In this document: positions 1-44,742 of the stretch, piece after piece
How the letters are laid out: every line of letters begins with the position of its first letter
Position numbering within the stretch: the first letter of the stretch is position 1
Assembly (NCBI RefSeq): GCF_000379685.1
Contig: NZ_KB903250.1
Location: forward strand, 248,624 to 312,623
Reading direction: 5' to 3'
Origin: Catelliglobosispora koreensis DSM 44566
GTDB taxonomy: Bacteria > Actinomycetota > Actinomycetes > Mycobacteriales > Micromonosporaceae
Length of the DNA: 64,000 bases
Made by a program: the position numbers and the translations under genes
Notes under the pieces: model-generated
The model's input: only the letters and a program-made list of their open reading frames with translations
Told to the model about the DNA's origin: nothing
The model's database searches: none

Positions 1-2
1 TG

Positions 3-596
3 CTGCTCGGCGACTCAACCGCGTTGGGCGTTGGCGTTGAGCACTTGACCGACACGGTTGGCGGTCAGCTCGCGGAGCTGTTGTCCGCTGATGGACGCCA
101 GGTCTTACTTTCGAGCGTGGGCGTGGCGGGCTCGCGTTCTTCCGACCTAGCGACGCAGGTCGCGCGCTGTCTGCTCGGCGAACGCCCCGACGTGGCACTG
201 ATCCTGGTGGGCGCCAACGACGCCACGGGTCTACGCCGGCCGACCGATGCGGCTGTCTACCTGGGCGCGGCGGTCCGCCGCCTTCGCGACGCCGGAGTGG
301 AAGTCGTCGTCGGCACCTGCCCCGACCTGGGTGCGGCTCGTGCGATCGCGCCGCCGCTGCGGCAGATCGTGGGCTGGCTGGGGCGCCGGGTGGCTCGTGC
401 TCAAGTACGCGCCGTGCACGCCGCAGGCGGAGCTGTCGTCGACCTAGGCGCCGAGACGGGACCCGTGTTCCGGGCGGACCCCAACACCCTCTGCCACGAT
501 CGCTACCACCCCTCCGCTGACGGTTACCGCGTGTGGGCGTACGCCTTGCTGCCCGCCGTCGCCCACGCCGCTGGCGTCACTCCCCGCCTGCCCTAA
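3..596 (+). CDS. SGNH/GDSL hydrolase, 5' end outside window
   Basis: The reading frame is already open at the left edge, so the N-terminus is missing. The first visible codons read LLGDST, the block I GDS motif carrying the nucleophile Ser of SGNH hydrolases. Further on are the block III motif VGAND (Asn near bases 216-218) and the block V Asp/His pair in DRYHPSADGY (bases 498-509), so the catalytic set is complete. These enzymes are esterases or lipases acting on acyl or acetyl esters; the substrate cannot be told from sequence. A TTG at 24 could be mistaken for the start, but it lies after the GDS block and would remove the nucleophile. No terminator hairpin with a T-run is obvious after the stop. 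Confidence 0.88.
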   Translation: MLGDSTALGVGVEHLTDTVGGQLAELLSADGRQVLLSSVGVAGSRSSDLATQVARCLLGERPDVALILVGANDATGLRRPTDAAVYLGAAVRRLRDAGVEVVVGTCPDLGAARAIAPPLRQIVGWLGRRVARAQVRAVHAAGGAVVDLGAETGPVFRADPNTLCHDRYHPSADGYRVWAYALLPAVAHAAGVTPRLP

Positions 597-620
597 ACAC
601 CCTTGTTGATCTCCGGCGCT

Positions 621-682
621 GATCCACATCCCGATAAGGTTGATCAACAGGCGGTTTGATCACCCTTTTCCGGCTATGGATC
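621..682 (+). repeat. 62-nt palindromic repeat, copy 1
   Basis: The element runs from GATCCACA to TATGGATC and is exactly 62 nt, like the copies at 807-868 and 44603-44664. Positions 21-30 (tgatcaacag) and 38-43 (gatcac) are identical in all three copies when copy 2 is inverted. The two arms are imperfectly complementary and fold into a hairpin around a short loop. It lies in the non-coding gap between the SGNH hydrolase and the thiolase. It resembles REP-type elements in organisation, but I do not recognise the family. Confidence 0.75.
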
Positions 683-786
683 TCGCTCAGTGATCACCTT
701 CCGGCCAACCCGAGGCGCAACCGTCTGAGGCGATCGCCGATCGCGGTCTCCCCCATCCGGGGCACGGCTCGACCGCGCCATTTCCC

Positions 787-888
787 TGATCCACATCCCT
801 AACTGAGATCCACATCCGGTGAGACGTGATCCCATGCCCTGTTGATCACGTCTCACCGGATGTGGATCTGCTTTGTGGATGTGGATCA
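787..888. repeat. Nested symmetrical palindrome around the hairpin
   Basis: A 12-bp perfect inverted repeat (TGATCCACATCC at 787-798 and its complement at 877-888) brackets the 26-bp hairpin at 806-869. Seven unpaired bases lie on each side (799-805 and 870-876), so the whole 102 bp can fold into an extended, almost symmetrical stem. It looks like two more half copies of the same repeat family placed around a complete copy. It lies about 240 bp upstream of the thiolase start. Confidence 0.7.
806..869 (-). repeat. 62-nt palindromic repeat, copy 2 (perfect hairpin)
   Basis: Bases 806-831 and 844-869 are a perfect 26-bp inverted repeat with a 12-nt loop. The core 807-868 is 62 nt and matches the other two copies only when reverse-complemented, so this copy is inserted in the opposite direction. 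Its arm sequence differs from copies 1 and 3, yet complementarity is complete, meaning that both arms have changed together. No T-run follows on either strand, so an intrinsic terminator is not the best explanation. Confidence 0.85.
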
Positions 889-958
889 TCCGGTGGCTCT
901 TTCGATGCGCCTTTGGCGAGGCGGCTGCGGCGCGGGCCCGGGGGGGGGAGCTTGGGAA

Positions 959-1024
959 GCGCGGACAGGGAGGGCCTCGCGGGAGGGACGGTCTGGACCA
1001 CGGCGGACATCGGAAATCGGGTTT
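959..1024 (+). repeat. Dispersed ~67-bp repeat, copy A
   Basis: This stretch matches 44490-44556 in the same orientation. A 22-bp identical core lies at 970-991 (starts GAGGGCCTCGC) against 44501-44522, and flanking identity is roughly 80 percent. A frame through it reads ASREGRSGPRRTSE, and through the second copy ASREGRPGPRRASE, but there is no RBS and no sign that it is translated. It lies between the palindromes and the thiolase operator. A stretch of nine G residues begins just upstream. Confidence 0.75.
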
Positions 1025-1102
1025 ATGGCGCGCCCATCGTGCGGCGCCGAAGCAGCGCGGCAGGCGGCACAGGGTGTGAGATTCTGCGGCTTGGGCCGTT
1101 GT

Positions 1103-1116
1103 TTACTCGCGAGTAA
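1103..1116. promoter_or_regulatory. 14-bp palindromic operator upstream of thiolase
   Basis: TTACTCGCGAGTAA is a perfect 14-bp palindrome ending 10 bp before the thiolase ATG. Palindromes of the TACTnnnnAGTA type are typical TetR-family operators in actinobacterial fatty-acid and acyl-CoA metabolism. By position it would overlap the promoter or the start of the leader, so repression is expected. The regulator is not encoded next to it. Confidence 0.6.
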
Positions 1117-1126
1117 GGTCAGAGGC

Positions 1127-2374
1127 ATGACTGAAGCTGTGATCGTCGCGACCGCCCGGTCGCCGATCGGCCGGGCTGGCAAGGGGTCGCTGGTCGATCT
1201 GCGTGCCGATGACCTGGCCGCCACCATCGTGCAAGCGGCCCTGGACAAGGTGCCACAGCTCGACCCGAACACGATCGATGATTTGTACCTCGGTTGTGGG
1301 CTTCCCGGAGGCGAGCAAGGGTTCAACATGGGGCGGGTCGTGGCGACGCTGCTGGGGCTGGACAATCTGCCCGGTGCGACGCTGACGCGGTATTGCGCAA
1401 GCAGCCTGCAGACGACCCGGATGGCGTTCCACGCGATCAAAGCCGGTGAAGGCGACGTGTTCATCAGCGCCGGTGTAGAGATGGTGTCACGTTACGCGCG
1501 CGGCAACTCTGACGTGCTCCCAGCGGATGCCGCCGCGATCGTTGGGGGAAGCTGGAAGAACCCGCGGTTCAAAGCCGCCGGGGGACGGACCGCTGAGCGG
1601 GCCGGGGAGAAAACTCCAACGTGGACAGACCCACGGGAAGCAAGCGAACTGCCCGATATCTACATCACCATGGGGCAGACCGCCGAGAATCTCGCTCAGA
1701 TCGCCAACGTGAGCAAGGAGGAGATGGACGAGTTTGGGGTCCGCTCACAGAACCTTGCTGAAAAGGCGATCGCGGATGGCTTCTGGGCTCGCGAGATCAC
1801 TCCGGTCACGTTGCCGAACGGGACAGTCGTGTCCAAAGACGACGGTCCCCGTGCGGGCGTGACGCTGGAAGCGACCGCTGGACTCAAGCCCGTGTTCCGG
1901 CCGGATGGGCGCATCACCGCCGGAAACTGCTGCCCGCTCAACGATGGTGCCGCCGCAGTGGTCATCATGAGCGACACCAAGGCACGCGAGCTTGGCCTGA
2001 CACCGTTGGCGCGCATCATTTCCACCGGTGTGACGGCAATGAGCCCTGAGATCATGGGCATTGGCCCGGTCGGCGCGACGCAGGAGGCGCTCAAGCGCGC
2101 AGGCATGACGATCGCTGACATCGACTTGGCTGAGATCAATGAAGCCTTTGCCGCGCAGGTGATTCCGTCTTACCAGCAGCTGGGCATTCCGATCGAGAAG
2201 CTGAACGTCAACGGCGGCGCGATCGCGGTCGGTCACCCGTTTGGCATGACGGGCGCACGCATCACGGGCACGCTCATCAACTCGCTGCAGTGGCACAACA
2301 AGAGCATCGGCCTGGAAACCATGTGCGTTGGTGGCGGCCAGGGCATGGCCATGATCATTGAGCGGTTAAGCTAG
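1127..2374 (+). CDS. Acetyl-CoA C-acyltransferase (thiolase)
   Basis: The predicted enzyme has 415 residues, the usual size of a type I/II thiolase. It cleaves 3-ketoacyl-CoA with CoA in beta-oxidation, or condenses acyl-CoAs in reverse. Cys90 (RYCASSLQT) is the acyl-accepting residue, His370 lies in VGHPFGMTGA and Cys400 in CVGGGQG, so the catalytic triad is intact. An in-frame TTG at 842 gives a longer ORF, but that would translate the hairpin and repeats; the ATG at 1127 has AGAGG just upstream and fits the family N-terminus (TEAVIVATARSPIGR). The penultimate Leu codon (2366-2368) is TTA. It is monocistronic, with its tail overlapping the convergent gene by 20 bp. No 3-hydroxyacyl-CoA dehydrogenase partner is adjacent. 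Confidence 0.95.
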   Translation: MTEAVIVATARSPIGRAGKGSLVDLRADDLAATIVQAALDKVPQLDPNTIDDLYLGCGLPGGEQGFNMGRVVATLLGLDNLPGATLTRYCASSLQTTRMAFHAIKAGEGDVFISAGVEMVSRYARGNSDVLPADAAAIVGGSWKNPRFKAAGGRTAERAGEKTPTWTDPREASELPDIYITMGQTAENLAQIANVSKEEMDEFGVRSQNLAEKAIADGFWAREITPVTLPNGTVVSKDDGPRAGVTLEATAGLKPVFRPDGRITAGNCCPLNDGAAAVVIMSDTKARELGLTPLARIISTGVTAMSPEIMGIGPVGATQEALKRAGMTIADIDLAEINEAFAAQVIPSYQQLGIPIEKLNVNGGAIAVGHPFGMTGARITGTLINSLQWHNKSIGLETMCVGGGQGMAMIIERLS

Positions 2375-2627
2375 CCCGCAACTCGCGCAAGGCTTCGATG
2401 GCTTCACTGAGCCGGGCCTGATCGGGGGTGCTCTCCATCAGATCGGCGACGAGAACGCGAAGCTGATCCGCAAGAGCCACATCGGAAAGTCGCGGCACGA
2501 CGTGTTCTGGACCGGCGATACGCTGCAGCACTTGGTGCAGGGTATCGCCCCGGCTCCCCCACCGGGCCGGAGTCCAATGTGACACCTGGTTGACGACCAA
2601 CTGGGTGACTTGCCGCAACTCTTCCAT
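2355..2627 (-). CDS. Small hypothetical protein
   Basis: About 90 residues, rich in Leu, Arg and Glu, probably all-helical (for example residues reading ELRQVTQLVVNQV and EAIEALRELRASL). I recognise no family. The longest reading frame begins at 2693, but its first codons fall in the terminator hairpin of the upstream gene. ATG 2627 has GAGGTG just upstream (3-nt spacing) and is the more likely start; ATG 2642 is the alternative. It ends inside the convergent thiolase. Confidence 0.55.
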   Translation of the reverse strand: MEELRQVTQLVVNQVSHWTPARWGSRGDTLHQVLQRIAGPEHVVPRLSDVALADQLRVLVADLMESTPDQARLSEAIEALRELRASLTAQ

Positions 2628-2644
2628 ATGCACCTCATACATAA

Positions 2645-2687
2645 AAAGATCGCCGTCCCGCGGGGTTACCCAGGAACGGCGATCTTT
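2645..2687 (-). terminator. Intrinsic terminator of the BI-1 gene
   Basis: On the minus strand AAAGATCGCCGT pairs with ACGGCGATCTTT (12 bp, 2645-2656 with 2676-2687), with two further G-C pairs inside. It is followed by a run of five T. It starts 8 bp after the stop codon of the Bax-inhibitor-like gene. Confidence 0.85.
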
Positions 2688-2695
2688 ATTCATGC

Positions 2696-3490
2696 TTAGT
2701 CGTCGCCCATGAAGTAGCTGAGCAGACGCAGGAACTCGAGGTACATCCAGATCAATTCGACCAGGATGCCGAAAGCGCCGAGCCAGCCGTATTTGCGGGG
2801 CAGGCCAGCGGCGATGCCGTCCTCGATCTGCTTGAAGTTCACGACGAACATCAGAGCCGCGACCACGATGCAGATAAGGCTGAAGCCGATGGCGATCGGG
2901 CTGCCGTCACGCAATGCGGTCGGTTCGCCGGTCGCGAGGGAGATGACGAAGTTGATCAGCATGACGACGGCGAGGCCGGCGGCCGCTCCAATGACGACCT
3001 TCATGAACATCGGGGTCGCCCGGATGACCTTCGCCTTGTAGAGGCCAGCCATGATGAGGAAGACGCTCAGGGTCGCGATGACAGCCTGAACAACGATCCC
3101 GTCATAGAGCGTCTCAAACGCCTTGCTCACCGCACCGAGGAAGATGCCTTCGACGATGGCATAGGCGAACAGGACGATCGGGTTCGTCACCTGAGCGAAC
3201 GAGATGATCAGACCGATCACGAGACCGACAAGCATCGCGGCGATGAAGGTCGGGTAGAGCGCCGTCACCGGGACAACTGCCCAGGTGATAGCGGCGAGCA
3301 GGGTCGTCACGCCGATCAGGCTGACCGTCTTGACCACGACATCGTCGATGGTCATGACGTCCTGAGTGCCCGTCTGGACTGGCGAGCCCTGGTAGGTGTA
3401 GCCGTATTCAGCGCCCTGACCGGGTACTGAGTACTGCGGTTGCTGCGCTGCCTTGCCTATTCGGCCCAGCACGGGGTTGGTGCTTTTCAC
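2696..3490 (-). CDS. Bax inhibitor-1/YccA family membrane protein
   Basis: 264 residues: a polar N-terminal tail of about 50 residues rich in Gln, Gly and Tyr, then about seven hydrophobic segments ending in the Glu-containing ILVELIWMYLEFLRLL. This is the layout of the bacterial BI-1/YccA (TMBIM) family, which includes pH-sensitive calcium-leak proteins and YccA, a modulator of FtsH. The actinobacterial branch carries exactly such an extended Gln/Tyr-rich N-terminus. The gene is single, closed by a strong terminator. The physiological role in Actinobacteria is not established. Confidence 0.9.
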   Translation of the reverse strand: MKSTNPVLGRIGKAAQQPQYSVPGQGAEYGYTYQGSPVQTGTQDVMTIDDVVVKTVSLIGVTTLLAAITWAVVPVTALYPTFIAAMLVGLVIGLIISFAQVTNPIVLFAYAIVEGIFLGAVSKAFETLYDGIVVQAVIATLSVFLIMAGLYKAKVIRATPMFMKVVIGAAAGLAVVMLINFVISLATGEPTALRDGSPIAIGFSLICIVVAALMFVVNFKQIEDGIAAGLPRKYGWLGAFGILVELIWMYLEFLRLLSYFMGDD

Positions 3491-44414: not shown

Positions 44415-44489
44415 GCCAAATGCACTACATGTGGAAGCAAGAGCCGCACCGACCTTGAACACGCGGCCAGGAAGCGGGACCGCCGGGAT

Positions 44490-44556
44490 GCGCGGACCTC
44501 GAGGGCCTCGCGGGAGGGACGGCCGGGACCACGACGGGCATCGGAAAAATGGGGTT
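44490..44556 (+). repeat. Dispersed ~67-bp repeat, copy B
   Basis: Matches 959-1024, with the 22-bp core identical at 44501-44522. It is in the same orientation as copy A, and both have a 62-nt palindrome nearby (here 47 bp downstream, there upstream). Confidence 0.75.
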
Positions 44557-44602
44557 TGAGCGTAAATCGGCATCGCTCGATGCATATCTGATCTCTGAGC
44601 AC

Positions 44603-44664
44603 GATCCACAGCCCGAAAAGGGTGATCAACAGGCCATTTGATCACTCCAATTGGGATGTGGATC
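44603..44664 (+). repeat. 62-nt palindromic repeat, copy 3
   Basis: From GATCCACA to TGTGGATC, 62 nt. It has the invariant tgatcaacag at positions 21-30 and gatcac at 38-43. Same orientation as copy 1. The outer 8 bp are perfectly complementary, and the rest of the arms are mostly so. Confidence 0.75.
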
Positions 44665-44742
44665 ATCCATGAAGATCGACATCGCGATCGTAAACGAAGG
44701 CGGCGAAAGGAGGCAGGACAGCGCACGGAAGGGGTGGACGCG

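Follow-up and report, generated by a model that had tools for sequence, protein, structure and literature searches.

REP-like elements are generally treated as hairpins, and REPINs are mobilised by RAYT transposases. Chromosomal sites of the matS, Noc, SlmA and ParB types are single short palindromes, and the site arrays of iterons and transposon ends consist of direct sites at about two helical turns. REP/BIME elements are described as dispersed extragenic palindromes that lie in convergent or tandem gene gaps and are found with other repeats (PMC3733652); a second source tabulates REP-like sequences from Actinomycetota species (PMC12306157). The palindrome described below, at 787–888 of a 64,000-nt window (the whole stretch of Catelliglobosispora koreensis DSM 44566 DNA that was analysed), is no one-off but one member of a dispersed family, T1. 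Among the open-licence papers listed, none named its box or the family.

The original prediction was a perfect 26-bp hairpin (arms 806–831 and 844–869, 12-nt loop) enclosed by a perfect 12-bp inverted repeat (787–798 and 877–888), with 7 nt between the inner and outer arms on each side (799–805 and 870–876), and each of these features is present in the sequence. The RNA fold of 760–920 had z = −11.0 against 200 dinucleotide shuffles, none of which was equally stable. Inner and outer arms carry the same 11-bp motif, 19 bp apart; the genome of 7.69 Mb contains its form here, GATCCACATCC, 166 times and the string read backwards not once. Two plus-strand genes flank the element, a GDSL lipase-like gene that ends at 596 and a thiolase gene at 1127; the loop of the element is the source of T1 polarity. 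An Rfam search of window positions 1–3000 gave no match above the gathering score and two below it, both to animal microRNA families; these matches, to mir-1267 and mir-39 on the minus strand at 803–869, are probably an echo of any long hairpin.

Features of the T1 locus and of its companion repeats in the window
Feature	Position	Strand	Basis or composition
T1 element, four-box copy (the palindrome)	787..888	.	arm alignment and family matches
Outer box A, GATCCACATCC	788..798	+	box match
Inner box A, 19 bp from outer box	807..817	+	box match and span analysis
Core half-site, GACGTGATC	823..831	+	arm alignment, family alignment
12-nt loop, here CCATGCCCTGTT; minus-strand reading AACAGGGCATGG	832..843	.	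family consensus AACAGGCGGTTT
Core half-site, inverted	844..852	-	arm alignment, family alignment
Inner box A, inverted; pairs with 807-817 to give the 62-bp span	858..868	-	box match and span analysis
Outer box A, inverted	877..887	-	box match
Left halo	697..786	-	outward strand G 0.44, C 0.28, T 0.13
Right halo	889..1126	+	outward strand G 0.44, C 0.26, T 0.16
T2 element, 62-bp span at 621-682, GGGTGATC-type core with A/T runs, terminator-like	608..695	.	profile match
M2, separate dispersed repeat of ~70 bp, here pointing away from T1	952..1025	+	profile match
Second T2 element of the window, M2 copy at 44483-44556 before it	44590..44677	.	profile match

Profile searches of the window and 65 further stretches, selected around covariance-model matches, yielded at least 74 T1 copies. 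Comparison of the window sequence with its own genome gave at least about 40 places (best 40 of 81 candidates scored), and a covariance model built from 40 copies gave at least 150 strand matches, by hand count at least 77 places, some of them belonging to a companion repeat, T2. A separate palindrome scan of the window and the 65 stretches, with a tolerance of 11 mismatches, returned 89 palindromes (68 with 0–2 mismatches, 7 with 3–6 and 14 with 7–11) and none in the reversed control. The T1 copies were found through box similarity, so that decayed copies could escape; ten 20-kb stretches outside the known places contained no T1.

T1 is 62–102 bp long and consists of an inverted pair of 11-bp boxes, GATC[C/G]ACA[T/G]CC, with a span of 62 bp and extra boxes 19 bp outward. 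The extra outer box is on the left only in 29 of the 74 copies, on the right only in 26 and on both sides in 17, two copies falling in neither class; 55 copies have three boxes and 17 have four. Which side carries it is independent of loop polarity and of gene direction. Aligned T1 ends have GGATC-ACGA-YKAAG where two boxes are present and GGATC-ACGA-purine-rich where there is one. On the one-box side, ACG(A) mostly comes straight after the inner box, just as it follows the outer box of the two-box side, and this arrangement suggests that a 19-bp unit was gained or lost. Five contig ends of this genome (the starts of C1, C7, C11 and C44 and the end of C4) lie within 500 bp of a T1, as if repeat-rich surroundings had broken the assembly.

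Pairwise identity among the 74 copies was 97.7% in the core, 93.7% in the inner boxes (98.2% without two degenerate sites), 87.6–90.3% in the outer boxes and 75% in the loop; it was 41.5% in the 5-nt spacers and 40–41% in the 8-nt spacers, with 26% for random sequence. At the 40 box and core positions, degenerate sites allowed for, 52 of the 74 copies were perfect and one had more than two deviations, and some copy pairs were close, L141 and L121 being 98.4% identical over the inner 62 bp. Of 70 innermost inverted box pairs, 66 had a span of 62 bp and 69 one of 61–63 bp, after 17 further inverted pairs of span 41 (62 minus 21), which by length use a box-like core, had been set aside; the reversed control was empty. 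Direct boxes were 19 bp apart in 86 cases, 21 in 16 and at other spacings in four, and the centres of the inverted boxes are 51 bp apart, about five helical turns.

Within copies, the 5-nt spacers formed 134 of 370 Watson–Crick pairs, against a mean of 151.5 between copies. Because they pair no better within than between copies, sequence sites rather than the hairpin seem to be conserved. Fully pairing 5-nt spacers were found in just 8 of the 74 copies, the window copy among them, and the perfect 26-bp stem of that copy is therefore atypical. The covariation score of 40 copies was 0.081 against 0.104 in shuffles, in a test that counted outer-arm pairs even in copies lacking an outer arm; pair measures were not above shuffles either, and compensatory stem changes, as sought for a structured RNA element, did not exceed expectation. 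Nor was there covariation between arms at the two degenerate box sites, which together with the non-pairing spacers fits DNA sites rather than a stem. With spacer pairing and covariation at or below expectation, selection for an RNA hairpin or a cruciform was unsupported.

The symmetry of the locus had been judged unlikely to be random, and insertion of one repeat into another had been offered as a possible origin. The non-randomness and the involvement of repeats held up; nested insertion did not: the outer arm repeats the inner box, and the 74 copies differ in how many boxes each arm has. A search for innermost inverted pairs at distances of up to 110 bp found no copy with the outer pair alone.

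T1 sits downstream of genes. According to a home-made codon-usage gene caller, 29 of the 74 copies lie between convergent genes and 31 between tandem genes (60 of 74), with 3 between divergent genes, 5 inside a called ORF and 6 at contig edges; gene pairs in the same stretches number 100 convergent, 315 tandem and 98 divergent. The intergenic regions that hold T1 are about tenfold longer than others, with medians of 609 bp (tandem) and 479 bp (convergent) versus 50 and 60 bp. Contigs differ in their density of the at least 77 places (permutation p 0.0003). On the contig with dnaA at 315 kb, the matches listed include three T1/T2 places, all beyond 500 kb, and no T1 in the first 500 kb. A dif pattern, used to place the terminus, gave no match.

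The least expected finding, which no reading explains fully, was a halo of skewed base composition around T1. In the noncoding flanks on both sides the outward strand is G-rich and T-poor over roughly the first 400 bp and has a nearly ordinary composition at 600–1000 bp, whether the side faces the end or the start of a gene. To 400 bp on the one-box side, the outward strand has G 0.45–0.51, C 0.22–0.25 and T 0.07–0.12; the two-box side has only a weak skew within 70 bp of T1. With T1, T2, a further repeat M2 and coding bases masked, the halo has G 0.43, C 0.26 and T 0.10, compared with 0.31, 0.31 and 0.19 in intergenic controls. Of 148 T1 flanks, 48 contained tandem arrays; in two sets of controls, 1 of 166 and 0 of 68 did. 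A purine/pyrimidine change point fell at T1 in 18 of 28 testable islands, with 1.8 expected from block shuffles; these replaced an earlier test (15 of 52 within 60 bp of T1, uniform expectation 10.6, and 43 of 52 within 120 bp) in which masking had pulled the estimated position leftward, to the border of the masked zone. By single element, the halo is a majority pattern and no rule: a C-rich left and a G-rich right flank were found together in 50 of 72 elements versus 16 of 83 controls, and a second per-element measure of flank skew gave 53 of 70. Purine words occurred at 20.7 per kb outward, 0.20 inward and 2.7 elsewhere on both strands, a ratio inflated by selection, the word list having been picked from the flanks counted; the base compositions are not so inflated.

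Two companion repeats accompany T1. T2, with 17 matches (two partial) in profile searches of the window and the 65 stretches, has the box, loop and 62-bp span of T1 and a different core with A/T runs flanking the stem, which makes it look terminator-like, resembling a bidirectional intrinsic terminator; in the cases seen it lies mostly 90–240 bp from a T1. M2, with at least 39 genome matches (best 40 of 70 candidates scored), has invariant blocks and occurs in many halos. Of 26 M2 matches that are 40 bp or longer and lie no more than 1 kb from a T1, 25 point outward, the exception being in L132; raw M2 core matches gave 24 of 26 outward in a list that includes non-M2 matches or matches about 2 kb or more distant. 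In the T1 stretches, 15 of 28 M2 copies are directed towards the 3' end of a gene no more than 110 bp away. M2 also occurs alone, there without a consistent upstream G excess. As a structured RNA, M2 was rejected (fold z = +0.7). It is also doubtful that M2 forms the outer end of one compound element with T1, because none of ten M2 copies taken away from known T1 had a T1 match within 2 kb; one of the ten has a T2 within that distance.

Neither a DNA search of 40 relatives nor searches of plasmid, phage and viral collections found a T1 match. Among 397 genomes drawn from the order, in a list from which the genomes of genus g55 are absent, that of T1 itself was the only one with the exact box pair at span 62. 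Under stricter filtering, with 33 candidates scored in each genome, the covariance model matched 13 of 120 other family genomes, and we read 25 of the matched places. In three g55 genomes (G054, G095 and G109), all ten copies read have the T1 box at span 62, around a core CGTGTC..GACACG instead of the T1 core; their selection through a model of 102 positions may favour equal length. Five places read in a fourth g55 genome, G076, represent another palindrome type, one of them with the box at span 61, and the palindromes read in other genera are of other types. Among 354 family genomes, the box 12-mer occurs 124 times here, 15, 13, 13 and 3 times in the four g55 genomes and at most five times in each of the other 349; its enrichment is confined to this genome and three of the g55 genomes. 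Both outward skews exceeded 0.1 in 1 of 20 look-alikes in other genomes versus 33 of 70 own T1 by the same measure, and the first five places read in relatives had no sustained outward G excess.

Other family genomes had their own kinds of nested palindrome (L159–L163, L165–L184): G009 has nested palindromes with GACGTGATC-type boxes, G076 has some with GATCCACAGC and CTACATCC parts, and G069 has some with CCACATCCGGGCGGATGTGG. A search for T1 in other phyla (contig collection minus the own genome) returned 37 half-element stretches; these were taken as chance because 36 lacked a following inverted box within 3 mismatches, and the remaining one, L075, ends after 12 bases.

We favour, with a probability of about 0.45, a reading of T1 as a REP/BIME-like chromosomal array of putative sites for a sequence-specific DNA-binding protein. 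Its basis is the boxes, their fixed spacing, the genomic location and the same box and span around another core in a second genus; constant boxes at a constant span, separated by free spacers, point to sites read by a protein in double-stranded DNA. The 74 diverged copies separate a hairpin reading from a site reading and favour DNA sites at fixed spacing, and the second genus keeps box and span while the core is replaced. The two inverted boxes at the 62-bp span and the one or two boxes 19 bp outside them would be bound together in one symmetric complex, mostly at gene 3' ends, where it might act as a REP/BIME-like anchor or insulator. Both the binding of a protein and the role of the complex we infer from sequence. 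The halo is not predicted by an array of protein sites; as a guess, its purine-rich, tandemly repeated DNA could stem from repeated slippage or repair synthesis beside the complex. Whatever its origin, the halo is a quantitative, testable sign of some process acting outward from T1.

The main rival has a transposase reading the same boxes, and conserved boxes with free spacers would be equally expected of a mobile element that needs its boxes for transposition. T1 would then be a REP-like non-autonomous mobile palindrome of MITE or REPIN type, a possibility we consider doubtful but serious, and its position would reflect tolerance downstream of genes. Dispersal within a single lineage (0 of 40 relatives, only the own genome of 397) and the near identity of some copy pairs, such as L141/L121, speak for mobility; the differing palindromes of other genera suggest turnover, and a convergent or unidirectional location is described as characteristic of REPs (PMC3733652). 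Against it, the sole Y1 (HUH) transposase match in the genome, when this family was searched, is partial, covering profile positions 76–121 of 121 in an 85-aa open frame (G000:C1:1131538-1131678, L164). T1 has inverted ends, and inspection of aligned copies by eye, without statistics, showed no target-site duplication; spacers average 41% identity, and the plasmid, phage and viral collections yielded no match. A bidirectional terminator or 3' mRNA stabiliser, acting through an RNA hairpin that C-rich, Rho-like RNA enters from both sides, is rather improbable. Its stable hairpin, its position after genes, the C-rich and G-poor composition of inward-reading RNA on both sides and the A and T runs around the T2 stem fit such a role, but the stem does not covary, the T run of an intrinsic terminator is absent from the T1 alignment, and the skew at sides facing gene starts is at least as strong as at those facing gene ends.

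In a further reading, T1 would be a start or restart place of outward bidirectional DNA synthesis and nascent-strand slippage would have built the purine-rich tandem repeats. The skew on the one-box side, reaching 400 bp and fading at 600–1000 bp whatever the gene direction, the excess of tandem arrays (48 of 148 flanks versus 1 of 166 and 0 of 68) and the change points at T1 (18 of 28, 1.8 expected) are all in its favour. We nevertheless regard it as a long shot: no initiator or nickase is known, the halo recurs in 1 of 20 look-alikes of other genera versus 33 of 70 own T1, and its composition could have other causes. A variant in which dispersed sites recruit a protein complex that starts nick- or break-directed outward synthesis or processing on both sides, the halo being its accumulated footprint, is about one chance in ten in our estimation. 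If outward synthesis were true, T1 would be a bacterial repeat growing its own intergenic DNA. A cluster of DnaA-box-like sites titrating DnaA is unlikely, to the point of being scarcely credible. The DnaA box is TTATCCACA, from which TGATCCACA is one position off, and a look-alike in genus g9 holds TTGTCCACA (L163); however, the T1 box is absent from the 3.5 kb around dnaA, where three TTATCCACA/TTGTCCACA boxes occur, and the C/G variation of the T1 box falls within its CACA part.

Set beside known systems, T1 resembles REP/BIME elements in being dispersed, extragenic, located between convergent or tandem genes and accompanied by other repeats, with at least 74 palindromic copies, 60 of 74 in convergent or unidirectional positions. 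It differs from them in length (62–102 bp, compared with 20–40 bp for REPs), in being built of direct boxes spaced 19 bp without a sign of pairing selection, and in its outward halo; an unpaired GTAG/CGTC end tetranucleotide was not found, CGTC/GACG sitting instead in the paired core. Like REPINs (PMC3733652), it is an inverted pair of short units with many copies in one lineage, whereas it has no GTAG tag and no cognate Y1 transposase gene was found in its genome beyond the one partial match. With matS, Noc, SlmA and ParB sites it shares palindromic sites that are numerous per chromosome and unevenly spread, but each T1 is an array of three or four sites. Its direct sites at about two helical turns recall iterons and transposon ends, from which it is set apart by mirror symmetry and by dispersal in at least 74 copies.
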